From Diplocarpon mali (lineage: Eukaryota > Ascomycota > Leotiomycetes > Helotiales > Drepanopezizaceae), in assembly GCA_024741835.1 (NCBI GenBank), contig JAENRP010000271.1:9049-62508 (forward strand): a stretch of 53,460 nt of DNA. The letters run 5' to 3'. Positions 4 to 38,048 of this stretch are shown piece after piece. The notes below the pieces were generated by a model. That model saw only the letters and a program-made list of their open reading frames with translations. It was not told where the DNA came from and did not search any database. Position numbers and translations under genes: made by a program. Numbering within the stretch: position 1 is the first letter of the stretch; every line of letters starts with the position of its first letter.

Positions 4-575
4 ACTCGCAGGTTAGGCCTGCGAGTAGATTTTAAAGAAATATATAGAAGGAGAGGGGGAAGGGGGGGAAGGTGCGGTAGTAAACAAATAAAAATGATAA
101 AACTCCTTTTTCTCCTTTAGTAATGCGACTCCTAGGCCGGGACCGCGAGTCAAAAGCTCGAAGTTATTAAAGCTATTAAATCGCAATTTTAAAGAAAATT
201 CGAAGATAATTTTAAGTAGTCTTAAGTATATATACTCTAACTAACTTAAAAGGCGTCCTTACTAAAGAAAATCCAAGCTTTATATAGAATTCGATTAATA
301 ATCTAGGAATTCCTTTAATATAGCCGTTTATTAAGCCTTTCTAAAGTGGCAACTCGCTTATTCAACTTAAGGGAAGCTGGATTTAAATATTTAAAGTTCG
401 CATGCTGGTTTTTGCCTTCTAAAGCCTATCGATTTTTAAATTAAAGGGTATGATAAGTTTTCTAAAGAAGGCCTTCGATTAAGGTTTTTAAATATTAAAT
501 GCAGAGTTTAGAAAACTAGGCTTTGAGTTCTTTGATTTTTAAGGCAGATTTTACTCCTAAGCCGGGACTGCAAGT
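4..575. repeat. three palindromic motifs in Gyp3 region
   Basis: Copies at 4-26 (both arms CGCAGG-like), 128-150 (ACTCCTAGGC with CCGCGAGT) and 553-575. The copy at 553 reads T-P-K-P-G-L-Q-V on the plus strand and T-C-S-P-G-L-G-V in the gag frame on the minus strand. Confidence 0.8.
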
Positions 576-1500
576 AAAGGGAATTACTATTAGATTTTTC
601 TTTACCTCTTTAGTAACCTTTAGAGCCTTCGAATATTCTTATACTAAGCTTTTAAGATCTTTAGTAAAGGAGGAGGTAGGCTCTTTTTCTTTCTTTATTA
701 CTTTGATAGTCCTTTCGCTAAGATCTGATTTTAAAGCAAAGGTTGAGAAGTCTTCGAATTAAGCGTATATTATAAGATCCCGCTTATTAACTCTAAAATG
801 TTTAATAATCTTATTTTAAAGGCTAATAGGTAATCTAAGTAAGAAAAGGCGTCCTCTTTTAACTTTATTAAGAATCTTCTAATCGATTAAGGTATTCGAC
901 ACTTAAGTAAAGGTCCGATAGTAGTTTTTAAGTTCCTTAAGAGTATAAGTAATAAGAATAAACTCCTTTAGAAAGGCTAGAGTATTACGAATCTGCTATC
1001 TATCAAATTCCTAAAATTCAGCTTTAAAAGCCTTAATAAGTAGTTCCTAAGAATCGCGAAGCTTCCACTTAGGTAGAGATTTAATAATATCTTTACTAGT
1101 TTAGTCGCAATAGTAGGGAAGTCGATTGATTATCTTATTATATCTAATACCGAAATTATAATAAGTCTCTTTATATTATTTAAGGAAATTAGTAATATTA
1201 GCTTTAGTAAAATAAGAAGCGCTAGGAGAATTAAGGAAGGGAAAATGATTAGTGATAGCTTTAAAGGCGGCTATTATCGCTTTATTCGTTTCGGTAAGAA
1301 GAGAAGAGCCAGGTCGAATATAAGGCTTAAGGTATTCTAAAGAGTTTTCAAAATCTGAATCAATCTTAGAGTGACTAAGGCGAGCTTGAAAAGATTTAAG
1401 CAAAGGGTTAGTAAAAAGTTTAAAATTGTTATTATTTTTAGTATTTTTAAGTATCGATATTAAAAAAGCAGGTATAGTTGCCGAAGGGGAAGATAAAGAA
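60..1500 (-). pseudogene. gag-like capsid frame of Gyp3, stop-ridden
   Basis: The minus strand reads as one gag-like polypeptide interrupted mainly by TAG/TAA at likely Gln/Trp positions. The longest open stretch is 1176-1403. Further on, a segment near 800-1000 reads L-K-E-L-K-N-Y-Y-R-T-F followed by V-S-N-T-L-I, then K-R-G-R-L-F-L-L-x-L-P, which resembles fungal gypsy Gag (D-L-R-x-Y-Y-R-x-F, then a short x-G-L-P motif). The C-terminal part becomes Pro/Ser-rich. The start is not certain; a TTG near 1403 is only the start of the open stretch. Palindrome copies at 128-150, 553-575 and 1535-1557 are in or beside this frame. The plus-strand reading frame at 523-762 is a shadow. Gag identity is inferred from weak motif resemblance. 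Confidence 0.5.
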
Positions 1501-1534
1501 CTTAAGGTATATAAAATTGCATTTTTATATTCCT

Positions 1535-1557
1535 ACTTGCAGGCCTGGCCTAGGAGT
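1535..1557. repeat. palindromic motif near Gyp3 gag start
   Basis: The arms are ACTTGCAGGC and GCCTAGGAGT. On the minus strand it reads F-T-P-R-P-G-L-Q-V-G. Confidence 0.8.
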
Positions 1558-1560
1558 GAA

Positions 1561-2249
1561 AATCCGGCTTCTATTAAAAGTTTATTTATACTTTGCTAAG
1601 ACTTCTTTAGTAGGTGCAAAGTAGCAAATAAGGGTACTATGATTACTAGCAGTAAGTAAAGGTTTATTAAGTTAAAGACTAATTTCTAAGATAAAGTTTC
1701 TAAAAAAGATTTATCTTAGCTTCTAGGATAATTCCTATTAGTCCTCAGAATAAAGGGGTCTCTAGAGACGATTCTAGGGCAGTTTTTAGAGTTCTATTAA
1801 GCTAAGGCGGCTGAATTATCAGATTCGGATTTTTAAAGATTCTAAGGAGATACTTCCAGTTGGAGTTTGCGCTTAGTATTACTTAAGTACTCGAAACTAC
1901 TACTATTTAAGACTGCTATTATAGGGTTTGCTAAACTTTTTATATTAGGAAGCCGAAAATTCCAAAAACCTTAGAGTAAAGGAGGAAAATAGGGGTTTTC
2001 GGAGCAGAGCCGAAAAGGGGAAATCTAAGGTTATTAATAGTAGAGAGTGGCAATCGACAGTTCTAAATAACTAAGTGATTATAAGGTCGATAATAGAGGA
2101 GTGACAATTGATAGTCATAAATAATTGAATAATTGTTGTTTTAAAAGGTTTTCAAAGGGTTGATCTTTTGTTTGCGAATTAAGAGAATCAAAAGGAGAAG
2201 TTGTATAAAGACGAAATCTCAAAGGAATTGTCCCTGCGTAGGTCACTAA
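1561..2249 (-). other. Gyp3 untranslated leader, no gene seen
   Basis: This stretch lies between the 5' LTR and the gag-like frame. I see no coherent frame on either strand. It holds a small palindrome at about 1756-1772 (GTCTCTAGAGAC) and purine-rich runs. No primer-binding site could be identified next to the LTR. Confidence 0.4.
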
Positions 2250-2495
2250 TATAAAAGGGAGTAGGAATAATATAAGAATAGGCATATATAAAGACTAAAG
2301 ACAAGAGGGAGGAAGCACTATAAGCGGGCTCTCCGAAGACAAGAACTAAGACAATTCACTAGTTAGGGGTAGAATAGGTGGTTGGCATTGCGCGCTATTT
2401 CTAAGTATAACAGTAGTCCTATATATACCCCTTTCTTGCTCCTCATCTGACCATATGACCTATATCACGAGATCCTCCACTTCCAGGTCTCTATA
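2250..2495 (-). repeat. Gyp3 5' LTR
   Basis: This 246-bp LTR is nearly collinear with the solo copy at 12534-12777. Read on the minus strand it begins TATAGAGACCTGG (TG mutated to TA) and ends TTTTATA. It is more RIP-mutated than the solo copy (for example CATATGACC here against CATGTGACC there). It abuts Cop1' sequence directly at 2496. Confidence 0.8.
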
Positions 2496-4268
2496 GTATA
2501 TGCTATTACTTTAAAGTATATACTCTTTTAAAGCAATATTGATTTACCTTGCTCCTTATATATATAAGAGTTTATATCGACCTTTTAAGCAAATGAATAG
2601 ATAAGAGAGGATAGGAAGGACTATTTAATAGTTTATATAGTTATTAAAGCTATAGTTGATAATTAAGCAAAGGATAGAGCGTAGTCTCCTAACTGCCTAT
2701 AGTACTAAGGCTCTCTACTAAAGCCTTCGAAAGGATGGCTAGACTTAAAGAAGTACCCTTTTAGCGAACGATTTAAAGAAGAAGGGCATTAGGAGATTAG
2801 GAATTTGGAATCTCGGAGTTGCTAGAAAATTGTGCAAAGGGACTACTCAAAGCCCTTATTAATATTATTAAAATGGGTTTTTACCTATAAATTCAATAGC
2901 TCTAGCAAGCTTCTAAAGTGCTAATTATAGCTAGTTATACAAGGGGATCTTTAAGATAAAGCTTTAATTTTCTTAACCTACGCAGCCACGCTTATAGTAA
3001 GGTCTTTTAAAGTACTAATAGCGCTTGCTATATACTTCGATATGGAAGTAAAGTAGTTCAATATCGTTAATGTATTTGTCAATGCTTTTAAAGACTTAAG
3101 GAGTGCTTTAATCATATATTTCTTATTAAATGGCTTTAAGCGCCTTAGTATAGTAGTAGAACTAGACTGCGCGCTTTATAGGCTAAAAGACTTTTTAGTA
3201 CTATAGTATAAGAACTTCGTAAGAACGCTTAAGGGCCTTTAACTTAAGCTATTAGGCAAGGAGCCTTATATTTTTATAATAAAGGATCGTATAGTCTTTA
3301 TAGCATTTTATATTAATAATATTTAAGTATTATATAAGGCCTTTAACTTAGATCGGGCGACTTATCTAATTAAAGACCTAAAGAGGGCATATAAGCTTAC
3401 TATTATAGGAGATATCTCCTAGTTCCTTAAAGTAAGGATTATTTAAGATAAAAAGGCAAAGAGGATCTCCTTAGTTTATAATACCTATATTAAGAAGATC
3501 GCTCAAAAGTTTAAAGCAGATATAAGGAGAGTGCTTAATACTCTACTATTAAAAAAGGAGTTTATTAAGAACTTAAAGCAAGCTTTTTTAAAAAAGGTAA
3601 AGGAGTACTAAGAGAAAATAGGCTCTATTCTTTATATAGCAATTATAATATACTTAGATATTACATTTATAGCCTCTTAACTATCTTTCTTCTTAATTAA
3701 TCTAAGCTCTAAGTACCTTTTAACCGCAGACTAGACGCTTTAATATATATATAGCACGCGCTTCTTAAGAATTGCCTATAGCTTTAAGGCTAGGGAATAC
3801 TAATTAGTTGCATCTTTAGATGCTTCTTTTAAGGATAACCGAAAGACTTGCAAATCCTCTTAAGGATATATCTTCTTCCTATTTAAAGGACCGATTATTT
3901 AAAAAGCGAATCGCTAAGCGACTATTATACTCTTTTTTACTAAAGTAGAACTCTATAGTATAGTTTCTATTATAAAGGAGATAATAGCTATAAAACGCCT
4001 TTTTAAAGAGATTCGCATAGACTTCCTCTTTAAATGGAATATATATTATAATAACTAATAGACGATTCGGCTAATTGTTATAAAGAATAAGAAGATTAAG
4101 ATAAGCCTTTAATATATCGAAATTAATAATATATAAATCCGCTAAGAGTATTAAAAAGGAAGCTTTTAAATAATCTACCTCTTTATTATAGAAATGTATA
4201 TAGATAGGCTTATTAAAAACCTAAACTACTAGAAGTTTAAAAGCTTTATTTATTTATTAAACCTTTAA
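2496..4268 (+). pseudogene. Cop1' pol remnant: reverse transcriptase and RNase H
   Basis: This is the C-terminal half of a copia polyprotein, killed by RIP. Readable landmarks in order are: W-V-F-T-Y-K-F near 2873; the RT catalytic segment at 3309-3320, now Y-I-N-N where the family has Y-V-D-D; W/Y-K-F-V-R-T-L-K-G-L; I-G-S-I-L-Y-I-A near 3620; and RNase H with A-S-x-D-A-S-F near 3810 and the usual R-Y-I-E-I-N-N tail near 4110. The stop (ctt taa, 4266-4268) matches the ctt tag stop of the Cop1 copy. Nearly all internal stops are TAA/TAG. Both catalytic Asp codons are lost (GAT to AAT), so the enzyme is dead. Confidence 0.88.
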
Positions 4269-4537
4269 AGCTTTTAAATAATCGTTTAGCAACTCGCACT
4301 TATTAGTAAGTAGTCACTTATTACTAAGAGACTTATACTTATAAGTTCCTACTCTTTTATAATTATATTTATTTATTTTCTTTTATAAAGCATATTATAA
4401 AAGCTCTTCTTTTTTAAAAATATAAGAATAGGTAATATTTTTAAGCTGCTATTATAAGGCGTAACCCTTTCTTAGATTCTCTTAGCTAAGGCTAAGAGCT
4501 GAGATGCTATAGCTATAAGCTCTGTATAGATCTCCTT

Positions 4538-5320
4538 TTAAGAGAAGCCTACTAGCACTCCCTCGGCCAAAGGCCTGCTGCCAAATATACTAGCGATAGT
4601 AAGGGCAAAGGCAAGAGGTGCGGCAGAGGTAATAGGAGCAAGGGCAGCAAGGGCGGCGGCAAGGATAGGCGTAGCGATAGCAAGGGCTAAGGAGACGAAT
4701 AAAGAGACTATAGCAGTAGCTGCAATAGCGAAGGCAGAGGGGATAAGAGCGGCAGCGACGGCAAAGGCGAACGGGTCTAAGCCGAAGGGGCTAAGAGCAA
4801 ATAGGAATAGTACGCTAGAAGCAAAGGAGGTAGCAATACTACTACTTATAAGAGTAGCAGGCCCTTTTAGTACTAGGGTCTAATCGCTCCTATCTTTTAA
4901 AATCAGTCTAAAACTTAATAAGACTTAATAAGATATACTATAGAAGCTTTAAAGCGCACCCTTTATTATATTAAGTAGTAGTACTACCTCTTCCTTAAAG
5001 GCGCCGCAGGCATAGGCCGATATAATAGCCTCTTAAGAGGTAAGGAGAGGTCCGCTGGCCTACTAATAGCTATTACTTAGTATTATATAATAAATGCAAT
5101 ATATACTAAAGGTGCTATTAAAGTATTAATAATTGAGATTACTAGTACTCTTATATGCGATATAACGCACGCATGCATTATTATACTTTATTATAGGCTT
5201 AGGCATATAGCGCGCAATAGGGGCAGGGCTCTTAAGTGGCGGCGGCGGCGGCAGGGGTAGCGGCAGCAGCAGTAGGGATAGCGGCGGCGGCTTATTACCC
5301 TATAGGCGCTAAGAGGACTG
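4538..5320 (-). pseudogene. antisense cysteine-motif frame of Cop1' (decayed)
   Basis: On the strand opposite to pol, between the pol stop and the 3' LTR, a long frame is recognisable with only RIP-type stops. Reading right to left there is a Pro/Leu-rich stretch, a Met near 5204, and a Cys/His-like segment with C-V-R-Y, then Y-x-Y-F-N-S-T-F-S, then C-I-Y-Y-I-I-L-S-N-S-Y. Taking the Tyr codons TAT/TAC as mutated Cys, this gives C-x2-C-x10-C-x10-C-x2-C-x6-C. It is followed by a conserved A-N/S-G-P-L-L block and an Ala/Pro/Ser-rich tail ending at a TAA (4538-4540). Copy 2 is at 50026-50780. The function is unknown; see the finding on the shared motif. Confidence 0.55.
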
Positions 5321-5754
5321 CGCTAGGGTTATAGCTCCCGAAGGAGCGCTAGCGACTTAGCGCAAAGTTAATATAACGCAAGGTATAAGGACTCTAAGGG
5401 TCTTACTTTGCAAGGGCGGCTAAGGCTATAACAAGCGGGAGTTCCTTCTATATTTAAAAATTATTAATATAAAGATAATATTTTGAATAATAAAGGAGGG
5501 TTATTTTTAAAAGAAGGGAAGGAGAACCTTTGCAATAGAAATACTCTATAGGAAGCCTAATAGAGTACTAGCATAGAATCGCAAAGATTCTTAAGCGCGC
5601 TTATTGCCTATAGTAACCCTTCTTATTCTAAAAGGAACAACCTTTAGAGGAGTAGTACGTAAGATAGAGCCTCTTTTCTTTACAACTGCCATTCTTTCTT
5701 TTATTTTATCTATATAGCTAAGCGATTCTAAGAGCATCGCCTAACTAAGAGGTA
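5321..5754 (+). other. Cop1' 3' untranslated region
   Basis: There is no coding frame. The stretch is collinear with 50781-51247 of Cop1. It ends with a degenerate polypurine tract (AACTAAGAGGTA) immediately before the LTR. Confidence 0.6.
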
Positions 5755-5957
5755 TATTATATAAAATAGGCGGAGTCTCTACTTATTCTAAAGACCCTCT
5801 ACGTAACTCTGCTAAGTTATAGACTCTCCTTTTTCTTTCCAAAGTCTCCTTACTATATATATACTAAAAAAAAAAAACAATACAATCAATCATCTTCCCC
5901 TACTTCTACGAGCCTCCTGAGCGACCTAATGAAGGCCCTCCAGCCGACCGCACCACA
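5755..5957 (+). repeat. Cop1' 3' LTR
   Basis: The 203-bp LTR starts TATTATATAAAATAGGCGG and ends CCGACCGCACCACA. It is the same family as 43844-44041 and 51248-51445 (198 bp each); the extra length is an A-run near 5868-5880. The termini are TG...CA type before RIP. Confidence 0.9.
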
Positions 5958-6193
5958 GGTTCTCTGATAGTAAACTTGATAGTAAACTAGAAGAGGGCAT
6001 AAAGAAGTATAAGGTGCAAACGACGATATTAGATATCTTGATTTATAAGAGCTCTTTAATTAAAAGCTATTTAAGGTAAGCGGGCTTCTTAGCGAAGCCG
6101 CTAAGTTATATAACAAGTTATATGATATATTATATATATAATATATTATATGATAGATCATATAATAAATATATAATAGGTATACTTATAATA
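5958..6193 (-). repeat. Cop2 3' LTR, outer end cut by Cop1'
   Basis: This matches 19152-19387 almost base for base, with heavy TG to TA and CA to TA change (for example ATATAATAGGTATAC here against ATGTGACGGGCATAC there). It contains a doubled TGATAGTAAACT motif at its right-hand (element 3') end. The missing 11 bases were separated by the Cop1' insertion. Confidence 0.88.
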
Positions 6194-6202
6194 CACCCCT
6201 TT
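6194..6202 (-). promoter_or_regulatory. Cop2 polypurine tract
   Basis: The minus strand reads AAAGGGGTG directly before the 3' LTR. This is the usual plus-strand DNA primer site and fixes the element's orientation. Confidence 0.7.
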
Positions 6203-6370
6203 AGGGAGACCTTTAAAGGTACTTGCCAGCAATATATATAATATTATAACTTTTGTTATAATTTATAGTTTCGTATAAAAAATCAACCTGCAGATATAGG
6301 AAATAGAGTAGAGTTCGCTAGCGCGCTCTACTTTAGAGTAGGAAATCCACCTTTTAAAAAGTCAAAATCA

Positions 6371-6393
6371 ACTCGCAGGCCTGGCCTAGGAGT
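6371..6393. repeat. palindromic interspersed motif, Cop2 3' UTR copy
   Basis: This is one 23-bp copy of the dispersed palindrome, with left arm ACTCGCAGGC and right arm GCCTAGGAGT. It is one of the best preserved copies in the window and lies outside the coding frame. Confidence 0.8.
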
Positions 6394-6482
6394 AAAAAAA
6401 ATCACCCCTTAATAGAAGTGTAAAAAAAAAATCACCTTATAATAGAGGTATAAAAAAAATCACCTTTTAATTGAGGTGCAAA
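6394..6482 (-). repeat. three tandem short hairpins in Cop2 3' UTR
   Basis: Three units of about 29 bp follow one another, each an A-run followed by CACC, a short loop and a GGTG-like arm: CACCCCTTAATAGAAGTG, CACCTTATAATAGAGGTA and CACCTTTTAATTGAGGTG. The last is a perfect 5-bp stem. They lie between the end of RNase H and the palindrome copy at 6371-6393. Confidence 0.7.
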
Positions 6483-8779
6483 ACCTTTATATTTAACAAT
6501 TTGATAAAGGCGGCATAGTTAAAGCTATTTAAGCTCTTAGTAAGTCTATCGGCGGCGTTATCTTTAGTATTAGCATACCAGAGGTCTAAATGGCCTTTCC
6601 AAAGCTCTTGCCGAATATAATAGAACTTGATATTAATATACTTTATTCTCTAATAATATTCGGGGTTTTCAATAAGATAAAGGGCTCTTTAATTATTGTA
6701 AATCATCTCGACTTTAGTAGTATTATCGCTATTATAGCCTATTTCTTTAAGTACCTAGCGTATCTAAGAGGCTTCTTATACGAATTTGCATATAGTAATA
6801 TACTCTACTTCTATAAATGAGAAAGCGATAATAGTCTATCGCTTAAAGGAGGCGGTAATTACGCTATTATTAAGGAAGAAGACAGCCCTAGAATAGGAGG
6901 CTCTACTTCCTCTATTACCTGCTTAGTCAGAATCGCAGTAGCTATATAATTTCTAAAGCTCTAGGTTAGTTGTTTTACTTCTAAAGGTAGTATAATAGAA
7001 TCGCGTTCCTTATAAGTATTATAAAACTTATTTTAAAGCTGCTATATATTATAGTAAAGGGTTAGTAAGGAATTTGCTAAGAATAAAGCAGTAGTATAGT
7101 ATATCCTAATATATATAATGCGTAAGGTACTATAGAGAACTATAGATCTTTTAATATAGCTTCACTTCTTATAGAGTGGCTTAGCCTTCAAATTTGACTA
7201 TATGAACTTTATAGCTATTAGTAAAAGGCGTTAGTACGCTTTTGCAATTAGTTATATGAAAACGTTTAAGAACCTTATTAATATAGGCGTTTTAATAAAG
7301 TAAGATTGTTTTATTTTATTAATCTCTAACTATATATACTTTTAAGAAGTAATTAGCCGGTTCGCTACTTATAATTTTAAAGAGGTTGCGAAGATCTCTT
7401 TTAAACTTATTATATATATTACTCTTCTTTGCTACTATAAGGAAGTCGTCGATATAAGTAATAATAAGAATCTAAAAGGCGCAATTAATATATATGCAAT
7501 TATTAGTATTAAAAGGTTGAAAATCGAGCTTTTATAGCTCAGACTATAGCTTTTCTTACTATAGTCGTAGAGATTGCTTTAAGCTATATAAGGCCTTAAG
7601 AAGCTTAAGATAGTAGTCTTAAGGTAAAAGAACGACCTTATCTTAAGTGTATTTAGGAGGTAACTTAATATAGATATTAGAGTTAGCTTCTGAATTAAGG
7701 AAAGCTATCTTAACGTCGAACTGATCTAGTTCGAAGTTGTAAAGAGCTGCAAGCGCAATTGCAATCTTTCAAATGGCAGATTTGCAAACGCTAGCAAAGG
7801 TTTGATTATAATCTCGACCTTATTATTATATATAGCCTTATATAATAAATCTGACCTTCTATTAAGAGATTTTCCTATTTTAATCTCTTTTTATTTTAAA
7901 GATAAGCCTTGATCTAAGTACTCTATTGTCTTTAAAGAGTTCTAAGCGTTTTACTACTACTTATATATCCTTATAAGTAAGGGAGTTATACTTAAAGTTA
8001 ATTGCAGATCGCCATTTATTGGCGTTAGCGTAAGAGAGGGCTTATTCGACTGTTTTTAGGTCATTTGGGTATAGAGAGTCGAGTAAGGCTATATAGAAGG
8101 CGCTTAAATAGGCTTCCTTATTATTAGAGTTATTAGCTTTGAATCTAAGAGCAGTAGAGCGAGTAGCTCTCTTTTCAGAAGGCTAAGGGTAAGCCTTGTT
8201 CTTTAAACTAGGAGGTCTTCCTCTCTTTCTTAAAGTTGGAAACTTAGCTTTATTAGCTTCTTCTAAATTGACTCGCGGTCCTAGCCTAGGAGTGGAATTA
8301 TTATAAGAGTCAGTATTGACTCGCGGTCCTAGCCTAGGAGTGAAAATATCGTTATTTTAAGAAGTAACTCGCGGGCCTGGCCTAAGAGTGAAATCACCCT
8401 TCAATTACAGCTCTATAATTAGGCTGTCTTTATCAAATCGAATATAAGATGATCGAATAATCTTTTCACCTATTTATAATAGCATATAGATCTGATAAAT
8501 ACTTTTACTATCAAATCTAATAAAAGTACCTACCTTTGCTCTTAAAGCGAGTTTATTACTTTAAGTTCGCTTTTCTTTCTCAATTAGTATATGGACGCGA
8601 TAGCCTAGTACTCTAAGATGCTTGATTAAGGGAGTATAAGGCTTATTAGGCTCGATATTGTCCTAAAAGACCTTATATAGAGTCTTGCCACCTAGAATAT
8701 CAGAGGCAGTAAGATTAGTGATATATATTATTAAAAGAAGGAAGTAAGGCTAAAGAAAGGAGGGGATATCTTAGTCAAT
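6480..8779 (-). pseudogene. Cop2 pol: integrase tail, reverse transcriptase, RNase H
   Basis: The minus strand gives the second half of the copia polyprotein. From the right: a post-integrase segment with T-L-Y-K-V-F and L-R-V-L-G-Y-R-V (8700-8590), a linker containing three in-frame palindrome peptides (8389-8271), and an R-K-R-G-R-P basic stretch. RT follows with Y-I-D-D-F-L-I-V near 7455-7435, so both catalytic Asp appear intact. Then come I-Y-S-S-L-Q-Y-L, the RNase H Y-C-D-S-D near 6900, and the tail A-D-R-L-T-K-S-L near 6545. The frame is broken by RIP stops and small shifts, especially around 7850-7600. The plus-strand frame at 6590-6820 is a shadow. The N-terminal half continues at 16610 beyond Gyp1. 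Confidence 0.85.
8271..8389 (-). repeat. three in-frame palindromic motifs in Cop2 pol
   Basis: Copies at 8271-8293, 8319-8341 and 8367-8389 have start-to-start spacings of 48 and 48 bp. On the minus strand they encode T-P-R-L-G-P-R-V (twice) and T-L-R-P-G-P-R-V in the same frame as pol. They sit in the low-complexity linker between integrase and RT. Confidence 0.85.
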
Positions 8780-8784
8780 TATAG

Positions 8785-9025
8785 TATTACGACTTGCTCT
8801 GGAGCGTACAGAGGGGCGATAATCGAGTAACGCTGACTGTATTACCTCAAGAGGTACGCTATATAATAGAGAAGAAAAGATGAAGAAGAGAGAGTCTTTA
8901 GTAGAGCTCCTCTAGAATAAGTACAGGTGCTTTACTAGCGTGCACGTGATCTAGCCACCTTGCTACCTTAGCGTGCACCTGACTTCGATATATGATATAA
9001 CTGTATATATGATACGGCTATAATA
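8785..9025 (-). repeat. Gyp1 3' LTR
   Basis: This 241-bp copy starts TATTACGACTTGC and ends CGGCTATAATA on the plus strand. It is the direct repeat of 16364-16604. It contains AAGAAAAGAT at about 8868-8877, which pairs with the primer site at 16353-16362. Confidence 0.92.
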
Positions 9026-9040
9026 CTACCTCCCCCTTTT
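9026..9040 (-). promoter_or_regulatory. Gyp1 polypurine tract overlapping the pol stop
   Basis: The minus strand reads AAAAGGGGGAGGTAG directly before the 3' LTR. The final TAG also ends the pol frame (K-R-G-R-stop). The tract is nearly identical to that of Gyp2 (34187-34201). Confidence 0.8.
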
Positions 9041-10682
9041 GAAAAACTGCGCCTATGCAGTTGTATCTATAGGCGTATTATCCTTTAGGTCCTTATAATC
9101 GTCAACTCTATTGTTATATGACCTAAGCCAGCTTAATAGCGCCTTTAGTGGCCTCTTAGCTTAAGGGTTCTTTAAATGGAAATCTCGAATAGCATATAGC
9201 GCTATTATAGCATTAGAGCATAGGTACTATTTAAGGTCTTTATTAGCTCCTTTCTACTTAATCTGATATTCGAGCTTCTTAGCTCGAATATAAGATCCGA
9301 TTATTTTTTCTATCTCTTATTCCTCTTATTCTAGCAGTACTTTAATTAGGGCAAGAGGTTCCTAAGCTTGGCCTAGTAAAGGGTTGGGAATGTATTTCCG
9401 CAGTAAGTAGGAGTAGAATATAAGGTAGATCGAATAGAGCAAATCAGGCAATTGTAGCTTCTAGCTTTCTCCTAGCTTTTTTAATACTTTTACTAGGCTA
9501 TATTACTTATTAAAGAGCTTTCGGCTCGGCCGGTCTAGTTTCTAATTTTTAGTACTAATTAGTACGTCATTTCCTATAGTCTAATCAACTAGCTAGTAGT
9601 AGAGATCTGCGAGCCGTTTTATTTTAGCTTATTATACTTAAAGAGACAATTAAGCGAATTAGACTACTTTTTAAGCTTTAGTAGCTATATAGAGTACCGT
9701 TTTACGATTTAATCTCTCGATTGCTATCTATAAAGGCTTTAGGTTAATTAAATTCCAAGAGGAGCGAGCTTTATAGCCGTTTAGCACTTAGAAAGGGGAA
9801 ATTTGCCTTAGGGATTTATAAGGCAAGGTCAATTGGATAATATTTATCAAAGGCAAAAGATAACTCTAATTATCTTAATAGTATAAGTAGAACGGTCTAA
9901 GGCGTTATTTTAAGTATTAGTTTATAATCTTAGTTTAGCTATCGACATTAGGGTTATAGGCTATAGTTAGCTTGACCTTTATACCTAGTATCTAATAGAG
10001 CTCTTTTTAAAAGGAAGAGACGAATTAGGCGCCTCTATTTGATAGAATCGAATTAGGCATATTGAAATGGTATATTTAGTAAATTAAAAACAACTTTGCA
10101 AGGCCTTTTACATTAACTGTCTTATAATATAGGATCGATACTACCTTCTTTAACAATCGGTCTATTATTACTAGTGCAAAGTTGTAGCTAAGTTCATTAA
10201 GCAGGAGCTTTATAAAATCTATTATTAAATATTAATAGGCTCGTTCGGGGATTGGCAAAGGTTATAGGAAACCTGGTGCTTTATTATATTAAGCTTTTAT
10301 CTTTAAATAATAATAGTTCTAGATATATATACCAATATCGCTGCTAAGGCTTTTTTAATAGTATTTTCTTCCTATTAGAAGTCTGGTCTTTCTAATTCCT
10401 ATATATACAATATAGGGTTGCTTATATATATGACGAATTAGGGCTATTTGCAGTTCGGGAGGTTGGGATAGTACAATGAGTCTACCTTAGAAGAAGAGTT
10501 TGCCTTAGCTGAGTTTATAGTCGAGGCTATAGCTTTAAGCCTTATCTCGGAACTTCTATAGCTTAAGGGAGGTCTTATTAGCTTAAATGACCTTATTAAT
10601 AATATAGTAGTTCGCTATATTATACTCGACCTTAGATATTAGGTCGGCAGGTGCCTCTATTAGTGCGATTGGTATAATCGTT

Positions 10683-10750
10683 ACTTATAGGCTAGGCCTA
10701 GGAGTGGAATTGATCTGCGCTAAAGTTACTTATAGGCTAGGCCTAGGAGT
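10683..10750 (-). repeat. two palindromic motifs in Gyp1 pol
   Basis: Copies at 10683-10705 and 10728-10750 lie 45 bp apart (15 codons). On the minus strand both read N-S-T-P-R-P-S-L-stop-V in the integrase-region frame; the stop is TAA, expected from CAA. Confidence 0.85.
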
Positions 10751-26950: not shown

Positions 26951-26951
26951 T
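26800..26951 (+). repeat. palindromic motif array in Cop3 pol, left part
   Basis: Copies at 26800-26822, 26890-26912 and 26929-26951 have spacings of 90 and 39 bp. They encode T-L-R-L-D-L-x-V, T-F-K-L-R-S-Q-V and T-F-K-S-E-L-x. Gyp2 inserted at the last bases of the third copy. Confidence 0.85.
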
Positions 26952-27257: not shown

Positions 27258-27259
27258 TT

Positions 27260-27272
27260 AAACGAAGAAGTT
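27260..27272 (+). promoter_or_regulatory. Gyp2 primer site complementary to its own LTR
   Basis: AAACGAAGAAGTT, two bases inside the LTR, is the exact reverse complement of AACTTCTTCGTTT at 27156-27168. This is the arrangement of Tf1-like self-priming retrotransposons. It overlaps the palindrome GAAGAAGTTCTTC. Confidence 0.75.
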
Positions 27273-27565
27273 CTTCTCTACTAAGGACGGCTTTTAATAA
27301 TATCCTACCCCTTTTGAAAATCGATTCGCGGTTATTTCGACTTTCGATAGAGTTAGGATCCTAGAGATCTCTTAAACAAACTGAGAGCTTAAGTATAGCT
27401 TGTTAACTAGTATAATCAAGGAACGCTTTTACTAGCCGGATTTTCTCAACTACTCCTTTTATAGAAGTGCTATAGGCAGAAGTTAGGAGAGCACTATACT
27501 ACTAGAACCCTTTTTCTATAGAACCCCTTTTTAACTGAATCACTACCGAAACTAAAATCGGTAAA
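27273..27565 (+). other. Gyp2 untranslated leader
   Basis: No gene is seen between the primer site and the gag start. The leader is closely collinear with 41192-41484 in Gyp2'. Confidence 0.5.
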
Positions 27566-28880: not shown

Positions 28881-28899
28881 AGGCTTAGGAAAAGACTCC

Positions 28900-31800
28900 T
28901 ACTTAGGCTTGCGAAAGTGCGACTTATTGAAGCTAGATCTTAACTCTTTAATAAGAGGGAAGCAATTCCTAACCTCTTATACTATTAGTATAAATAGACT
29001 TAGAGTATTATTATTAGCTTTAGCAGATACTAAAGCCCTTAATTACCTATTTTTAAATCGTTCCCTTTTTATATATCTTTTAAAAGCGACCGGCTCTTAA
29101 ATTCTTCCTCTTTTAGCCCTTATTCCTATCTATGGATTTTAAAATACTATTCGCGCGTAAGCTATGTACTATATACGCTTTCACTTAACAATTGATAGAA
29201 GGCGTATTTATAACTGCCCTTAGGTTATCCTCGACCTAGGCTAGCGCGATGCTATTATTAGAGTCAAATGGATACGCCGATTCCGACTTAAACTTAATCT
29301 AAAGGAAAACCGATTTATATGGCCTTTGTATTACCCCCTATCTCCCTAATTCGCAAAGGAAATCGTCATTTGTCTTCCCCCTTTTAAAGGACTTCAAATA
29401 CAATCCGATTATTAAGCTAATATTAATTGCAAAAAATAGGAGATAGCTATAGATAAAGCTTAATAGATTAATAGAAGATAGTCTTGCGTCAATTTAGTAG
29501 TCTTAGCTAGGCGCAAGATCCCTATTGCTATTATTAAGCTAGCGCCCTAGCCTATAATTAAGCTAGATCTAGAAAAACAGTCTAATACGAATCGACTATG
29601 ATCTGACCCTATTTGCAAATGCCCTAAAGCTGCGGTTCCTATTTGTAAAATCAGTACTAATGCCTTTTATTATAATATAAAGTATAAGGAGACTGAGTTC
29701 TTTTAAACTAGTATTTATAAAGTGGATAGGATTCTAAAGGAAAGATATAAGCCTAAGAATCCTAATATTGAAAAGCTAATCAACGATCGACTCTTGAAAT
29801 AGTACTGATCTTTAAGATAAGCTTTCTTAAAAAGGAATGCAGATACCCTCCCTTCCTATTAGTACTACGATTATAAGATATAGCTAGAAGGGCCCTTGCC
29901 TAATACCTATTCGCCCCTCTACTATTAATCTACTAAGGAGCTTAAGGTTATAAAGGAGTACTTACTTAAGAATTTAGATAAAGGCTTTATTAAGATAAGT
30001 ACTAGCCCTTTTGCTTCACTAATACTATTTATAAAGAAGGCCGACGGTAGCCTTTGATTTTACATAAACTACCAGAAGCTAAACGCACTAACTCAGAAGG
30101 ACGCTTATCCGATTCTAAGGATAGACGAGCTTTTAAGGCGAGTATCTAAAGCCAAGATTTTTATAAAACTAGATATTTGGGCCGCTTTTAATCGGATACA
30201 AATGGACCTTGAATTAAAAGAATATACTACCTTTCGAATAAGGTATAAATCCTATAAATGTAAGGTTCTTCTATTCGGCTTCTATAACAGACCTAGTACT
30301 TACTAGTAGTATATAAATGACGTTCTTTTAAATTACTTAAATGATTTTTATATAGCGTATTTAAACGATATTTTGATTTACTTTAAGAATATTAAAGAGC
30401 ACTAGGGATATATTGAAAAGGTATTAAAATAACTCTTAAAGGCTGGCCTTTAAGCAGATATTAAGAAGTGCAAGTTCTATATTACTTAAACTTAATATCT
30501 TAGCTATATTCTAATAATAACTAGGATCGAACTAGACCTTGAAAAGGTCGAACTATTGCGCAATTAGAAGTACTTAAAAACTATTACTAAAGTAAAGTCC
30601 TACCTAGGATTTTGCAGGTTCTATTAATAATTCATTTGCAACTTTAGGCTAATCGCTAAACCCCTTTCAATTCTGACCCGACCGATAGTGCCTTAGAATT
30701 AGATAGAAGAGTGCTAAATCGCTTTTAAAGAGCTTTATAAGCAATTGCTCTCAATTTAGCAGATTTACCATTTTAACCCTAACTTACTTATAAAGCTGGA
30801 AACTAATGCTTCTAATAGCGTTATTGCTAAAGTACTTTCTTAGCAATACTCTGATAAGCAATAGTACTTAATTAGCTTCTATTTGCATATACTCTCTAGT
30901 TATAAACCTAATTGGGAAATATATAATAAGGAACTCTTTACTATTATTAAATCCTATTATAAATAGAGACTTAAGCTTATATTACTTAAGGAGCGAGTTG
31001 ATATTTACTTAGATTACCGCTCCCTTAAGTACTTTATAACTACTAAGGTTCTAACCGCGAAATAGTACTAATAGATGGAATTCCTATTTAACTTTAATTT
31101 TCGAATTATATATACTTTTGGTAAAGACAATCAGAAGGCCGATATTCTTAGCCGCTAAGAGTAGGATATGCCAGTTTATAAGCAAGCGAAGCTAGATAGC
31201 CGATCTTAGGTTCTAATTTCCCTAGCCTAGTTGGACCCTTGAATCAATACCGAACTAGCCGATAAATTTCTCGCCGAATCTGCCAAAGGCACCTTTGCCC
31301 TAATATTAACTAATAATCCTAATTCGACCCTAAATCGACCTAAGGATTCCTTTAATTTAATTAAAAAGCTTTATTAAAATAACTGCGAATCCTTTTAAGA
31401 GATTCGCGCTGACCTCCTTAAGAACTACTCTTTAAAAGACAGATTGCTTTACTTTAAGGAGCGTCTTTGCGTACGCTGCAATACTCCCTTATACACTTGT
31501 CTAATTTAGGAAGCTTATAACCAACCTTTAAGCGCGCACCCTAATGGCTTAAAGACCTACTAGCTTCTTGCTTTTAAGTACTATTAGGTTGGGATAGGTT
31601 TAGACTGTAAAAGATTTATCGCAAACTATAGACCTTATCAATTTTCGCATTTAAAGACAATTAAGCAATAAGGCCTCTTATAGCCCCTTCTTATTCCTAA
31701 TTATCCTATGCAGTACTTATATATAGATTTTAAGGATTTCCCTTTTAATAAGCACAGTTTTAATCGAATCTTAATTTTTATAAACCGACTTAATAAGAGC

Positions 31801-32892
31801 GCTATTACGATTCCTTATTAAAAAGATATCAACGCTTAAGGAACTGCCTGATTATTCGTTTAGTAGATATATCGATTCGGCCATACTCCGGAAACAATTA
31901 CCTTAGACCGAGGCCCCTAATTTATCTCCTTATTTTAAAGAGAGTTCTGCTGTATTATTAGTATTAAGATTAAACTCTCTATAGCATACTATAAGGAGAC
32001 TGATAGCTAAACGGAGATTATAAACAAGTATATTAATTTAAGGCTAAGGCCTTTTGTTAATTACTATTAAGATAATTAGAGTGAACTGATTCTATTAATA
32101 GATTGTGCGCAATCGACTCTACCTTACGCTTTGATTAGTATAACCCTATATTAGCTTAGGTATAGAGTTGCACCTTAGATAAGTTAAGATTGGATCTTTT
32201 TAAAAACGTCTAACCTATAGGAGAAATTAAACTAGGCAAAAGCTAAGCTAATAGTAGAAAGGATGCACGCAGCTTAAGAAGTAGCAAAAGGTAATATAGA
32301 ACGCACTTAAGAGAAAATGCGTAAGTCTATAAATCAATACTAAAAGGAGATTGATTAGAAACCTAAAGATATAGTCTACCTTTTAATAAAAAATCTTAAG
32401 AACTACCGCCTTAGTAGGAAACTGGCTAATTAATAGGATAGTCCTTTTAAGGTTCTTAAGAAGGTAGGCAATTTATATTAGATCAAGCTGCTTATAGGTT
32501 TTATAATATATAATATCTTTACGCTAAAGCTATTATTTAAAGATCTGCAGAACCCTTTACTAAGTTAGGAATAACCCTAGCCTATTATAGAAAAGATTGC
32601 TAAGTAAAAAGAGTATAAAGTATCTAAGATACTAAGTGTACGCCTATCTTAAGGAAAGCTAGAGTATTAGGTCAAATGGACTAATTATAATCCTAATTCG
32701 AGTTGGTATCGCGCCTTAAATTTTGTAGGATCCTTATATAAGATTCGCGACTTTTATTAGGCTAATCCTATAAAGCTAGGACTACCTCGGAACTTATAAG
32801 CTTAGCTAAAGGCTTAGGAAAGTAGTATAGATAATTATAGTTACTTAAAAGATAATAGGCCAGATGCAAAATGGGTTAGTAAATAAATTTAA
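28900..32892 (+). pseudogene. Gyp2 pol: protease, RT, RNase H, integrase, chromodomain
   Basis: The frame is long and clearly readable. A protease remnant is A-D-T-K-A at 29020 and the following L-F-L-N-R-S-L-F (family D-S-G-A). RT (about 29930-30560) has S-P-F-A-S, F-I-K-K-A-D-G-S-L, K-L-N-A-L-T-Q-K-D-A-Y-P and the active site Y-L-N-D-I-L-I-Y at 30358-30381 (D to N). RNase H has L-E-T-N-A-S-N near 30800 (family T-D-A-S) and D-Y-R-S-L near 31013. Integrase has a degraded HHCC (near 31500-31640), D-F-K-D-F-P near 31725, L-D-R-G-P-Q-F near 31900 and E-T-D-S-Q-T-E near 31998. The chromodomain has L-E-Y-Q-V-K-W-T-N-Y near 32660. The stop is at 32890-32892. Confidence 0.92.
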
Positions 32893-32940
32893 AAATATAA
32901 ATAAAAAAAAAAAAAAGGAGAAAAATAATAAAAATAGAAA
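32893..32940 (+). other. short A-rich run after Gyp2 pol
   Basis: About 14 A in a row (32902-32915), then AGGAGAAAAATAATAAAAATAG. It lies between the pol stop and the antisense frame. No function is shown. Confidence 0.5.
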
Positions 32941-34060
32941 AATAATAACGCTGGGCCAACTGCCCCTTCCCCTTATAACTCCTCCGACCCCTCCTTCTTT
33001 GCGCTTAAGGAGATAAGTTCCAACTCTGTTTTAAAGCTAAAGCTCGCCTCTTAAATACGCCCCCGCTTAAAACGACCCTGACCTCCTCCTTTAGCCGCTG
33101 CTAGCGCCGCCCTATTGGCCGCCGCGCCTAATGCTACCCTTACTACTACAAGCCGCCCTCCCCTTATAAGAGACTCTGCTACTATAGCAGTCCGCTTTAC
33201 TAACGCGGTAATAGACCTTAAGAGGCTTAGTATAGTTCGGCTGGATTACTCTAACCTTGCTAGCTAGGACTTAATAAGGTCGCTACGCTCCTATTAAAAA
33301 GTTAGCGATCGATTCGATACTAATTCGGGTTTAACTTATAGCAACCGTCGCCCGGATCCCCTTTAGCTGGCTTGCTATAGCCTTAGCTATAGAGTAGAGC
33401 TCCGCAAGGCTAGCACGCTCTAATTAGGAGCGGCTAGTCGGAGCCTTTGCGCTAGCCATTAGCAAAAGGTTGATAAGGATCCGGGCGCGCTAGACCGCCT
33501 CCTAATAGAGCATCTCGCAGTTCCCTACTAAAATTGTATATATATTATTATTATCTTTGTTATTATCCTCCTCTTACTACTAGAGAGCCTCCTCCTGCCA
33601 CTCCTCAAGGGCTGCGGATAGTGCCGCGAACTCCTTACTAATATAAGAGGGAAGCTATAAATAAGTATTAGCGCAACTAGAACTTTGGACTCGATTCGAG
33701 GTACTTATAGGGATGCATTCCGCCTTTTGCTCCTAGCACTAGTAGCACTTCTTACTACGCTCCGATTCGAACTCGCATTTATATATAATATCGTATATAA
33801 GGCGCTGCACGCACTAATAGCAGCATACGCAGTAGGCCACTGCAAGAGTGCCCGATAGCAAGGGAATTGGCACTATATATATTAGATACGATTCGACCTT
33901 AGACTAAGGCAAACTTACTTATAGTAGTTAGTAGTAGTAGTAGTATTTGTTTCTACTACTATGTATTAGCCCTGCGCTATAGTAGTAGGAGTAGGGGACC
34001 TATGCGATAGTATATAATTATTATACTAAAGAAGGAAGATCCTACGGGAGGAAAAACAAA
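32940..34060 (-). pseudogene. antisense cysteine-motif frame of Gyp2 (decayed)
   Basis: On the strand opposite to pol, one frame runs almost the whole distance between pol and the polypurine tract with only RIP-type TAG/TAA breaks. Reading right to left: K-V-E-S-Y-L-I-Y-I-V-P-I-P near 33890; V-A-Y-C-V-C-C-Y-x-C-V-Q-R-L-I-Y near 33835-33790; K-C-E-F-E-S-E-R-S-K-K-C near 33780; C-x-E-Q-K-A-E-C-I-P near 33735-33710; then helical K-E-F-A-A-L-S-A-A-L-E-E-W-Q-E-E near 33640; L-I-N-L-L-L-M-A-S-A-K-A-P-T near 33475; and A-S-L-A-E-L-Y-S-I-A-K-A-I near 33410. The Cys spacing is C-x2-C-x12-C-x9-C-x2-C-x6-C. The ends are not defined. Product unknown. Confidence 0.65.
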
Positions 34061-34186
34061 TTTGAATATATAATACGACTTATGCTAAACTAAATATAGA
34101 ATAGTACTATTCGTATAATAATGCGCTAAGTACGTTACTATACGAATATTATCACAACCTCCTAACGCTTATAGGCAAGCGTTCTT

Positions 34187-34201
34187 AAAGGGGGGAGGTA
34201 G
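34187..34201 (+). promoter_or_regulatory. Gyp2 polypurine tract
   Basis: AAAGGGGGGAGGTAG directly precedes the 3' LTR. It is nearly identical to the Gyp1 tract. Confidence 0.85.
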
Positions 34202-34508
34202 TATAACAGCTATACCTCCACTTAGTGCAATTACCTAGGAGTACGGCGTTTTAAGGTTTCGCAATCTCGATTCGATATAGGGTTTTCTTAAATCGACCCT
34301 AAAGGTGCAAAAGGATATTCTTATATAATATTACGTAAATAGGCAATAGAGCTTCTAGCTGCTATATATATAAGGAAGAAGGGCTCTCCCTTAAGGAGGG
34401 TTCTCTAACTTCTTCGTTTCCTTCGTATTAGACCTATAGAATACGCCTTTTGCACCACTTCTTGCTCCTATACTTGATCTCGCACTTCGGCGGTTCTGTG
34501 TCGTTACA
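34202..34508 (+). repeat. Gyp2 3' LTR
   Basis: This 307-bp direct repeat of 26951-27257 starts TATAACAGC (RIP) and ends GTGTCGTTACA (intact). Each LTR has private RIP changes. Confidence 0.94.
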
Positions 34509-34513
34509 ATAAG

Positions 34514-37500
34514 TAGATTATAAAGTATCTTTAAAGGTAACTCTTAAGCTAGGATTATAAGTGAATTTAGTAGAAATAACTCCTAAGTTAAGACTGCAAG
34601 TAGATTCTGCAGATTTGCTAATAATAACTCTTAAGCTAAGATCGTAAGTGAAATTTATAGAAATAACTCTTAAGCTAAGACTGCAAATGAAATTCGCAAA
34701 TTTATTAAAGATAACTCTTAAGCTAGGACTATAAGTGGATCTTGCGGTTTTATTAAAAACGACTCTTAAGCTAGGCTTATAATTAGAAAATGGCAAAACC
34801 TCGAACTACTATTATTAGTCCTTTTTAGCCACTAATAATAAAGTATCGATTAATAATAAGCTACTAAAGCTATTAAAAGCCAAAAGCCTATTTAAGTATT
34901 AGCTAATATATAAAAGATTCGCATATCTAAGGCTAAAGAAATTAAAGGGCCTATATAAAGTCTTAACTTTAAAACAGAAGATCTAAATACTAAAGGATCG
35001 CTTAGTATACTAAATTTGCAAGCTAATAAAACTTTAAAATCAAATACAAATTAAGCTTAATCTATAGAAAGATTCGATACTAGCACTAATATCTATTAAT
35101 ACTATTAGACTATTTATAACTTTAATTAAAGGAAATAATTAGTTTTCTTAAATAGTAGATAACTCTACTTAGCAAATATAGACTATTTGCACTAGGACTA
35201 AATCTAAGCTTATAAAAAAGCTAGAAACTTAGAAAGTAATAAAGGAATGCTAGACTTAATTAAAGCTAATAGCTATTAGGTCTAATAACGCATTAGAGAT
35301 TAAGATAAAGCTTAATAAATAGGCAAAATAAGGAGTTTATTATAAACTAACTATAATATATAAAGGTTCCTATTAGAATAGTATCGCTAAGCAAAGTATT
35401 TAATAAGTAGAGATTGACTATTGCACTTTATTATAAGATGCTGACCTACTACTGGAATTCTAAGACCTTGCGATTAAGGTAGATATATACTTACGAAATA
35501 AAATAGGTAGTAGACTAATAGTTAATAGCACTTAAATATTACTATATAAGGTATATTTTAAATAGAAACTAAGCTTAGATTATATCTATATCTTTAAAAG
35601 CGTTTGCTACTTCTATATTAGCCTAAAGTCCTAGCCTATAGGTATAAAAAGCAAGAAGCTAATAGATTAAGGTAAAGAGTATATATTTATTAAGTATATT
35701 AAATAGATAATAAAGTAATAGATAGTATATACGCTAGACTTAAGGCAAGTAATTATATCCTTAATAGTTAAGTTTGATAAATCTTAAAATAGGGGGGAGC
35801 TATCCTTAAAGCTTTATATACTTAAAGATTCGCAAAGTATACTACTTAATAGTAATACTATTAAGCTAAACTAATAATCCCTTTCTTTAAGCTTAGATAT
35901 ATTAAGCGTACCTATTGATCGACGACCTACTAGTTGCCTAAAGGCCAAATAGACTATTCCTATTATCTGCGAACTACCTAAAGTATAGAATAACTTTAAT
36001 ATTATTATCCCTTTAATTAAAGCACTTATAGTAAAGGATATTCTTAAAATAGGTATAAGTAATGATAAGCCTCTACTATTAGAAAGCGGTTCTTTAGATA
36101 ATAAGCCTATAGAACCTATAGCTGAACCTATGCCTTTAAAGAGGAATAGAGACCTAGAACTAGAAGATACCTTAGATAAACGCGAGTTTAAGCGTATTTA
36201 GGCTATAATAGTGCATAGGATTTATAAGCTTGAACTTTAATAGAGCTTCGATAAAGATAATACGTTCTTAACCGCTAGGGAGATAATGAAAATCTCTTTT
36301 CTAAAGATATATAATAAAGCTATTAATAATCTAAAGAATAGAGTAGTATAGAGTGAGGCAATTTAAAAGGAGATAAGCTTTCTTATTATAAATGGTATAT
36401 AAATAGAGGAACTAATGCTAAAGGATATGAACCTAGTATTAATAAAGTAGGTCTTTATAATTAAGATATATATAAATAGAACCTTAAAGCGTTATAAGGC
36501 AAGGCTTATAACTAGGGGCTTTTCCTAATAGTATAGAGAAGATTACTTTAATATATTTGCGCTAATAGTTCGCATAGATACCCTTTGTATATTTATAGTA
36601 ATAGTAGCCGCTAAGGACCTTAAATGTAGATAGTACGATATTAAAAATGCATTTACTAAAGCGATTATAAAGGAACGGATTTTTCTCTCCTGACCTAACG
36701 GTATTCCTATATACGCTAGCCACTTTCTTTATATACTTTATAGTATCTATAGGCTTAAATAATCAGCTTATAATTAAAACCTCTTATATAGCTTTGCTCT
36801 AGTAGAAATAGGATTCGTTTAAAGCTTAGCTAACCCTTATCTTTTTACCTATATTAAGTATAGAATCAAGTTACTCTTATATATTAATAATATTACTATA
36901 GCTGCGAAAACAACTACTTAATTAGATTGGTTCTTTATAATAATTTAAAAACGTTTTAATATTAAGGATCTAAGGGGAATTTATAAGATCTTTAGCATTT
37001 GCATTATAAGGAACCGCTCTACTTAAGAACTTTAGTTAGATTAAGAGTAGTATATTAAGAAGATCTTAGATTAAATAGGACTCTCTACTTATACTCTTAA
37101 CTTTAAGTTAAAGCGTACTCCAATCGAAGGAAAGTATAATAAGTTAAAGCCTGCTAATAAAAATAAGTAGAGAAGAGATCTGAAGAAGTACTAATAGGAT
37201 ATTAGAGCGATTATATATACTATAGTATATATAAGACCAGATATCGCCTTTATTATTAAGTAACTTAATTAGAACTTAAAGGATCTAATGATTTAATATA
37301 AGAATGCAATCAAGCGACTTAAAAAGTACCTTTAATTGATAATTATATAAAAGGTAAGATATAGATTAATAAAATATATAAGCGTAAAGCTTAAGGTATA
37401 TATTAATTCTAATTAGGTAAATATAAAAGGTTAGAAAAGTATATCTAAAAGCGTAATAGTACTATATAATAGACCTATATTATAGGGAAGTAGGAAGTAG

Positions 37501-37870
37501 AAATCAGTAGCTATTATAAGTATTAAAGTAGAATATATATTAATATTATTAAATTGTAAGTAAGGATTATAAATCGCTTAAGTTTTAAAAGATATAAGTT
37601 TCGCTAAGTATATTAAATAAGATAGGAACTATATTAATCTTTAAGTAGATAATATAAGGGCAATTGCACTTATAAAGAATCTATACTTGTATAAGCGATC
37701 GAAATATATTGATATTGCCTATTACTTTATTTGCAACCTTATTATAAAGAATAAGTTATCAATCACTTATATCTTAACCGATTAAATAGTAGCAAATGGA
37801 TTTATAAAGCTATTAAAGATAGTTGCAAAGTTCAAAGCGTTTAAAGATATACTAAGATTGTAAAAGATAG
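34514..37870 (+). pseudogene. Cop3 pol: GAG-pre-integrase, integrase, RT, RNase H
   Basis: This is the continuation of the frame cut by Gyp2. After the palindrome array comes K-R-F-A-Y-L-R-L-K-K-L-K-G-L near 34915 (GAG-pre-integrase), a heavily broken integrase (35020-35800), and an acidic linker with E-P-I-A-E-P-M-P-L-K-R-N-R-D near 36110. RT follows with Y-K-A-R-L-I-T-R-G-F near 36495, F-A-L-I-V-R-I-D-T-L near 36548, C-R-Q-Y-D-I-K-N-A-F near 36624, and the active site Y-I-N-N-I-T-I-A-A-K near 36880 (family Y-V-D-D). RNase H follows with I-R-P-D-I-A-F near 37223, Q-V-D-N-I-R-A-I near 37643 and Y-I-D-I-A-Y-Y-F near 37705. RIP stops occur throughout. Confidence 0.88.
34540..34784 (+). repeat. 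palindromic motif array in Cop3 pol, right part
   Basis: Six copies start at 34540, 34579, 34627, 34666, 34714 and 34762, with spacings of 39, 48, 39, 48 and 48 bp, all multiples of three. Each encodes a T-L-K-L-G-L-x-V or T-P-K-L-R-L-Q-V peptide in the pol frame. Together with the three copies left of Gyp2 this was one array of nine. The minus-strand frame at 34518-34796 is a by-product of the array. Confidence 0.92.
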
Positions 37871-37895
37871 TAGGAGCTTAATAGGCTTAAGGACA

Positions 37896-38048
37896 ACTCC
37901 TAGGCCCGCCTTATGAGTTAGGTTATATAGTCTTATAAAGGAAAGTTTTTCTTTAGATCGACTCTTAGGCTTAGACTGCGAGTTAAGTCATATAATCTTA
38001 TAAAGGAATGCTTTTAGGAAATTTAACTCCTAGTCCTACCTTGCGAAT
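37896..38048 (+). repeat. three palindromic motifs after Cop3 RNase H
   Basis: Copies at 37896-37918, 37961-37983 and 38026-38048 are exactly 65 bp apart. The spacing is not a multiple of three, unlike the copies inside coding regions. They lie between RNase H and the 3' LTR. Confidence 0.85.

Follow-up and report, generated by a model that had tools for sequence, protein, structure and literature searches.

A 23-bp palindrome inside retrotransposons from a Diplocarpon-like fungus appears to be a tiny passenger or parasite of its hosts

The stretch of DNA analysed here (the window; 53,460 nucleotides, C271:9049-62508) raises the question of how one short palindrome came to recur inside the reading frames of several retrotransposons. 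The original prediction had counted about 30 copies of such a motif, hereafter PAL, and a PAL copy was present at each of the 30 coordinates. When the window was scanned with a decay-tolerant model, in which C may read T and G may read A, the matches at the loosest setting tried were these same 30 copies, while 100 Markov resamples of the window gave a mean of 0.25. Thus, no copy had been missed and none lies beyond position 38100. The 30 copies represent 12 distinct sites (three in Cop2, three in Gyp1, four in Gyp3 and two in Cop3), several of which are local tandem arrays. The sites and their hosts are as follows.

4 to 26, no strand assigned: PAL in Gyp3 with symmetric GC/GC arms (motif scan, flank clustering)
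128 to 150, plus strand: PAL in Gyp3, CT arm first (motif scan, flank clustering)
553 to 575, plus strand: PAL in Gyp3; site also in loci L012, L015, L018, L021 and L024
1535 to 1557, minus strand: PAL in Gyp3; site also in L012, L015, L018, L021 and L023, with some flanks diverged
5957 to 19379, minus strand: Cop2 (Copia) host; LTRs at 5957-6185 and 19151-19379, Gyp1 nested inside
6371 to 6393, minus strand: PAL in the 3' non-coding part of Cop2, between the pol end and the 3' LTR
6470-8791 and 16605-18749, minus strand: Cop2 pol (protein match)
8271 to 8389, minus strand: three PALs (8271, 8319, 8367; spacing 48) in the Cop2 integrase-RT linker
8704 to 16602, minus strand: Gyp1 (Gypsy) host; LTRs at 8704-9023 and 16289-16602, pol match at 9032-11884
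10683 to 10750, minus strand: two PALs (spacing 45) in the Gyp1 RNase H-integrase linker; other copies hold from one to at least three
12867 to 12934, minus strand: two PALs (spacing 45) in the Gyp1 protease-RT linker; up to four in L013
14702 to 14724, minus strand: one PAL in the Gyp1 5' part, putatively in gag, upstream of the pol-matching stretch
17605 to 17693, plus strand: two PALs (17605, 17671; spacing 66) in the Cop2 gag-protease linker
20144 to 20292, plus strand: three PALs (spacing 61 and 65) downstream of Cop3' pol
26800 to 26951, plus strand: first three PALs (spacing 90 and 39) of the Cop3 (Copia) array
34540 to 34784, plus strand: the other six PALs (spacing 39 or 48) of the same Cop3 array, on the far side of a nested LTR element
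37896 to 38048, plus strand: three PALs (spacing 65 and 65) downstream of Cop3 pol

Four retrotransposon families had been named as hosts. LTRs and reverse transcriptase were found for Cop2 and Cop3, which are Copia elements, and for Gyp1, a Gypsy element; the assignment of Gyp3 to Gypsy was not confirmed, as this element (window 1-2600) showed LTR-like ends only and had no match among 244 pol proteins. In L021 (3994-6944), Gyp3 seems to be a short element, only about 3 kb long and bounded by LTRs; it holds four PALs and is perhaps non-autonomous. Loci L011, L016, L017, L023 and L026 revealed the LTRs of Cop2, Gyp1 and Cop3. In Cop2, the gag-protease PALs and the integrase-RT array point in opposite directions. 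The Cop3 copies at 26800-26951 and 34540-34784 form one array split by a nested element (LTRs at 26949-27261 and 34200-34512), and a reading of the frames places this array, with some uncertainty, between protease and GAG-pre-integrase. A PAL array downstream of pol, in 3' non-coding sequence, is common to Cop3 and Cop3', and the 3' copies of Cop2 and Cop3 lie just upstream of the 3' LTR. The nested LTR element inside the Cop3 array (26949-34512; LTRs 94% alike, Gypsy match at 30130-32862) is PAL-free, as are two copies, 86% alike, of a distant Copia element (2495-5957 and 47986-51445; 26-27% identical to the protein P0001 described below). In L009, the Cop2 3' non-coding PAL has beside it, at 5097-5189, an AT-rich repeat of 32 nt in three copies, the core of which resembles CACCCCTTA.

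To see how far the motif extends, the genome (49.37 Mb in 676 contigs) was scanned. With up to three mismatches, the form listed from the window occurred at 1,766 + 1,802 = 3,568 strand-places, compared with 2 + 1 = 3 for the same pattern read backwards. In this search of the assembly, of the sort that the original prediction had proposed, the counts far exceed the controls, and an origin by mere chance fails against them. The GC-rich parent form, ACTCSCGGGCCNGGCCCGSGAGT, occurred at 382 places with up to two mismatches, compared with 0 for its control. Fetched loci plus the window, many of the loci having been fetched for holding PAL, contained 154 matches versus 2 in three resamples; eight arbitrary 5-kb genome stretches contained none at the same threshold, and a looser scan of them gave a few degenerate one-mismatch matches, which were taken as chance. 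Many contigs have PAL copies, which sit in retrotransposons and in some cases have GC-rich flanks. When 20 small contexts were picked for unusual letters, 19 matched repeats in hand and the twentieth, L052, was itself repeated. Rfam had no match to PAL. Sources outside the fungus were also considered: a prokaryote source was rejected, with two stretches matching the parent form exactly in prokaryote species genomes, and so was a viral one, with no exact match in viral contigs. A plasmid search with the protein P0014 (see below) returned three records at 26-28% identity.

In less mutated copies, PAL is a near-perfect GC-rich palindrome of 23 letters, ACTC-S-CGGGCC-N-GGCCCG-S-GAGT, in which one base separates the arms; the core of 23 bp becomes 35 bp with the flanking frame. 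The parent-form counts indicate that the form read originally is a product of C-to-T and G-to-A decay, as RIP (repeat-induced C-to-T mutation) produces. The motif first listed was thus real, and its arms, ACTCCTAGGC and GCCTGCGAGT, are those of decayed copies of the nearly perfectly palindromic parent. Beside the core, 116 copies have Y at position -2 and R at +24, within a looser RATTYN...NRAWTY frame, and one class of copies departs from the Y at -2. The arms differ at base 5, with C in one arm and G in the other or their decay products, and the direction of this difference is the same for 141 of 152 copies, a count that includes RIP derivatives and loci partly chosen with the lopsided pattern. 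Exact places of the parent pattern allowing either base were lopsided in 21 of 22 cases across the genome. Together, these two counts point to one founder. A GC/GC pattern occurs at 27 places. Against a single lopsided founder, symmetric arms were seen at no fewer than four of 20 sites (S8, S14, S15 and S21). The folding energies of three parent-like 35-mers, composed by hand from the consensus, were -23.8 to -30.1 kcal/mol, and that of a decayed 35-mer was -15.9 kcal/mol. No covariation between the arms was detected (487 standard pairs versus 491 in shuffles), a weak result since most copies are RIP-decayed. Transversions were found at 10 of 1,716 core positions (0.0058) versus 181 of 17,514 flank positions (0.0103). 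With P = 0.07 and pairs that are not independent, this difference is not decisive evidence of purifying selection on the core. Direct reading showed the parent form to be open in all six frames. The claim that the motif stays open on both strands accordingly holds for the parent, but decayed CTAGG copies carry TAG in one phase.

Protein relatives were examined as well. A search with a Cop2 segment returned six proteins, the best of which was P0001 (PZA11_001233 of Diplocarpon coronariae; 1,491 residues). In its intact frame, TREPGPGV occurs at 354 and 370, and TPGPGPRV at 849, 864 and 880; in the L011 DNA, these two peptides are opposite orientations of one DNA motif within one ORF. Pfam places gag at 65-220, Pol_BBD at 392-473, an SH3 domain at 758-828 and RT at 991-1240, so that all five PAL peptides lie between domains. 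P0002 of Rhynchosporium graminicola, which is 55% identical to P0001, has neither peptide. In P0014 and P0015, intact D. coronariae proteins of the Gyp1 type, PAL peptides near 379-401 lie between RNase H (216-321) and an integrase zinc-binding domain (475-531), and nine of the ten Gypsy rows from outside D. coronariae lack the peptide in this linker, which P0012 covers only in part. Three other Gypsy proteins carry related peptides, TREPGARV in the RNase H-integrase linker of P0007, TREPGPRV in the protease-RT linker of P0010 and the weaker TRDPGPPV in P0018; P0007 is 76% identical to P0014, and by likeness P0007 and P0010 are probably fungal. Among the 244 proteins, a tight peptide pattern had 11 matches, eight belonging to D. 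coronariae; narrower patterns written for the two remaining phases had none, and a loose pattern had 12 matches forward versus one backwards. Among 120 listed of the 2,502 proteins found with P0001 as query, the tight peptide occurred in P0001 only. In these predicted intact polyproteins, PAL is thus confined to inter-domain linkers and read in phase 0. Among named relatives, D. coronariae proteins come closest, L039 being 85% identical to P0001 over 871 residues; the window is probably from Diplocarpon or a neighbouring genus of the family Drepanopezizaceae. Fuzzy linker alignments (the single-copy Gyp1 of L025 against P0008, and P0001 against P0002) suggest a net insert of about 9-10 residues, or 27-30 bp. 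Since an insert of 23 bp alone would cause a frameshift, additional bases from the flanks must have been inserted too or duplicated.

The sites themselves were then compared across the genome. Clustering of 152 copies gave 43 flank classes, which were grouped by hand into 20 sites with different flanks (one edge copy, L025:6188, is left out). These sites lie in Cop2, Gyp1, Cop3 and Gyp3, the rest being in repeats without class; ten stop-free pieces of L009, L025, L024 and L023 gave nothing above the Pfam cut-off. As L009, L025, the L023/L024 end and L052 are unclassed and Gyp3 matched no pol protein, the restriction of PAL to LTR elements holds for the classed hosts only. Across sites, agreement between flanks ends about 6 bp from the core. 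Copia and Gypsy elements carry PAL at different linkers and in both orientations, and descent from a single vertically inherited ancestor, which would have undone the original prediction, fails on this ground. Joined-flank searches, which favour empty sites, yielded 156-254 candidates for each site, and the 40 best of these were scored. They resolved 225 copies at six sites: the Gyp1 RNase H-integrase site contributed 40, the Cop2 integrase-RT site 26 and four further sites together 159 (15 more matches, 14 and one, showed one flank only and are outside the 225). All 225 were filled, which counts against mobility. At the four further sites, which are single-copy, the extra length was 23 in 157 of 159 copies, with 22 and 24 once each. 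At the two coding sites, all 14 one-piece copies had an extra length of exactly 23, and all 52 two-piece copies had one of 23+3n (68, 71, 74, 77, 113, 116, 119, 122, 125, 131 or 167).

The spacing in multiples of three that had been noted inside ORFs thus extends from the window to genome copies at two coding sites. L043, whose flanks are GC-rich and so little mutated, contains three PALs in near-identical 45-bp units. These units and the 23+3n lengths indicate that arrays grow by tandem duplication under frame constraint, and neighbouring PAL copies are at least partly tandem duplications. The number of copies per site ranges from one to nine. In 3' non-coding arrays, the spacing was 61 or 65 in the window, as had been noted, and 63 or 64 in L022. 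A target duplication had been proposed as a check on insertion. A first direct-repeat test on site classes, within 8-20 bp, gave P values of 0.015-0.05, but arrays confound it; over 20 sites, with lengths of 5-9 and offsets of -2 to +4, no consistent fixed length emerged, and three of 35 tests had P values of 0.001-0.005. With no empty copy among the 225 and no fixed target duplication, present-day mobility is unsupported. Of the claim that the palindrome inserts into reading frames, it follows that PAL is dispersed, in frame and extra relative to homologues, but not that it is inserting now.

Based on these results, PAL is probably an ultra-short insert resembling the Rickettsia palindromic elements (RPEs). 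It would have moved among retrotransposons, persisting where linkers or non-coding sequence could accept it, and been multiplied along with its hosts; it forms one family in unrelated retrotransposons of a Diplocarpon-like fungus (Helotiales), with a 23-bp core and perhaps a net insert of 27-30 bp. Its history may have been as described below. A hairpin-forming unit would rarely insert into element DNA or cDNA. Selection would remove copies that break domains or frame, local tandem duplication would give rise to arrays, and retrotransposition of the host element would multiply PAL. RIP would then decay the host together with PAL, the latter less so because the palindrome has few CpA sites. Since every classed host is an LTR element, insertion tied to retroelement cDNA is favoured, and we offer this tie as a guess. 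A bolder version, which we regard as rather unlikely, would make PAL a retrotransposon parasite, in the form of an approximately 30-nt hairpin that replicates when it is patched into cDNA in either orientation during reverse transcription, with the virus-like particle as its vehicle, and among the smallest selfish elements of nuclear genomes, in several fungi. We know of no enzyme or source element for PAL.

The main rival is that PAL is a cis-acting site, either a DNA-binding dyad or an RNA hairpin for packaging or dimerisation, which was gained by recombination and kept by selection. The complete occupancy of the six sites agrees with this, as do the occurrence of PAL in non-coding and linker parts alike, the strong hairpin of the parent form, the conserved AT frame around the core and the lower rate of core than flank transversions (at P = 0.07). 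However, the window holds elements without PAL (the Copia copies at 2495-5957 and 47986-51445, and the element with the Gypsy match at 30130-32862), a dyad would not be expected to have lopsided arms, the number of copies varies from one to nine per site and the arms do not covary, although the last point is weak in copies that are mostly RIP-decayed. This explanation is thus considered unlikely. Exchange between elements by ordinary recombination or gene conversion, with PAL having no mobility of its own, would account for the location of all tested sites in repeats, for sites common within families and for the variation of arrays, which indicates duplication or recombination at work there. 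It fits poorly with letter agreement across sites that ends about 6 bp from the core, with both orientations in Cop2 and with the lack of an obvious common Copia/Gypsy stretch from which exchange could start, and we judge it improbable.

A selected peptide, that is, a polyprotein linker or cleavage motif T-x-x-P-G-x-x-V that is palindromic in DNA by accident, might be read from the five intact settings between domains in phase 0 (two in P0001, and those in P0014/P0015, P0007 and P0010), of which P0007 and P0010 were found via the peptide and so provide no test of phase. This reading is very hard to sustain, since PAL also occupies 3' non-coding stretches of Cop2 and Cop3, encodes two different peptides depending on orientation and is one DNA motif across families. 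Least credible of all is chance, or a single ancestral sequence inherited vertically by these families. Within the tested families the site is common to all resolved copies, as vertical descent would have it, but the controls were nearly empty, the hosts belong to unrelated superfamilies with PAL at different sites, homologues without PAL exist, and, in the searches outside the fungus, the exact parent form matched two stretches in prokaryote species genomes and none in viral contigs.

The reading of PAL as an ultra-short, RPE-like insert was finally set against known systems. MITEs are inverted repeats that occur in both orientations and have no coding capacity. PAL shares these three traits; it differs in having no inner sequence beyond the one base between its arms, in being far smaller and in that no target duplication of fixed length was found over the 20 sites. 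Features of bacterial MITEs are tabulated in PMC2229807. Palindromes have reportedly been described from the mitochondria of Neurospora and Podospora, by citation in PMC7218506. GC-rich palindromes, double-hairpin elements and ultra-short invasive elements of fungal mitochondria are very short and considered mobile in the passages of PMC7218506 that treat them; these are mitochondrial, unlike PAL, which lies in nuclear repeats with RIP-like decay and in open reading frames. Fungal GalEa Copia elements, in the relevant part of PMC5445492, have a conserved 9-bp hairpin palindrome next to the 5' LTR. It is likewise a palindrome in fungal Copia elements, but PAL is longer, lies in linkers and upstream of the 3' LTR and occurs in unrelated families. 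Among the open-licence papers listed, no title or abstract appeared to describe a nuclear fungal palindrome of the PAL kind, and the main text of the D. rosae genome paper has no word starting with 'palindrom' (PMC5628827).

The closest parallel, and the one originally drawn, is with RPEs, which in parts of PMC2229807 and PMC6649704 appear as elements of 105-146 bp with a long stem-loop in bacterial genes, also in Wolbachia. As seen in those parts, both are dispersed palindromes that are tolerated in frame inside proteins, and for both a target duplication is not established. In-frame insertion of the RPE type into otherwise normal proteins is seen in the predicted proteins P0001, P0014 and P0015, whose frames are intact. 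PAL falls outside the RPE length range; relative to the elements in those passages, it has a 23-bp core, nuclear LTR retrotransposons as classed hosts and in-frame arrays. The likeness is thus one of manner of working only, and size, host and target class differ. With PAL, one can ask by what route a sequence of only some 30 bp spreads, how foreign sequence is accommodated in polyprotein linkers and whether retroelements carry passengers themselves. Rickettsia and Wolbachia were already known to have in-frame selfish palindromes, and organelles to have mobile palindromes of very small size; PAL presents the same logic in nuclear fungal retrotransposons, in thousands of copies, with intact frames and a related element that lacks it.
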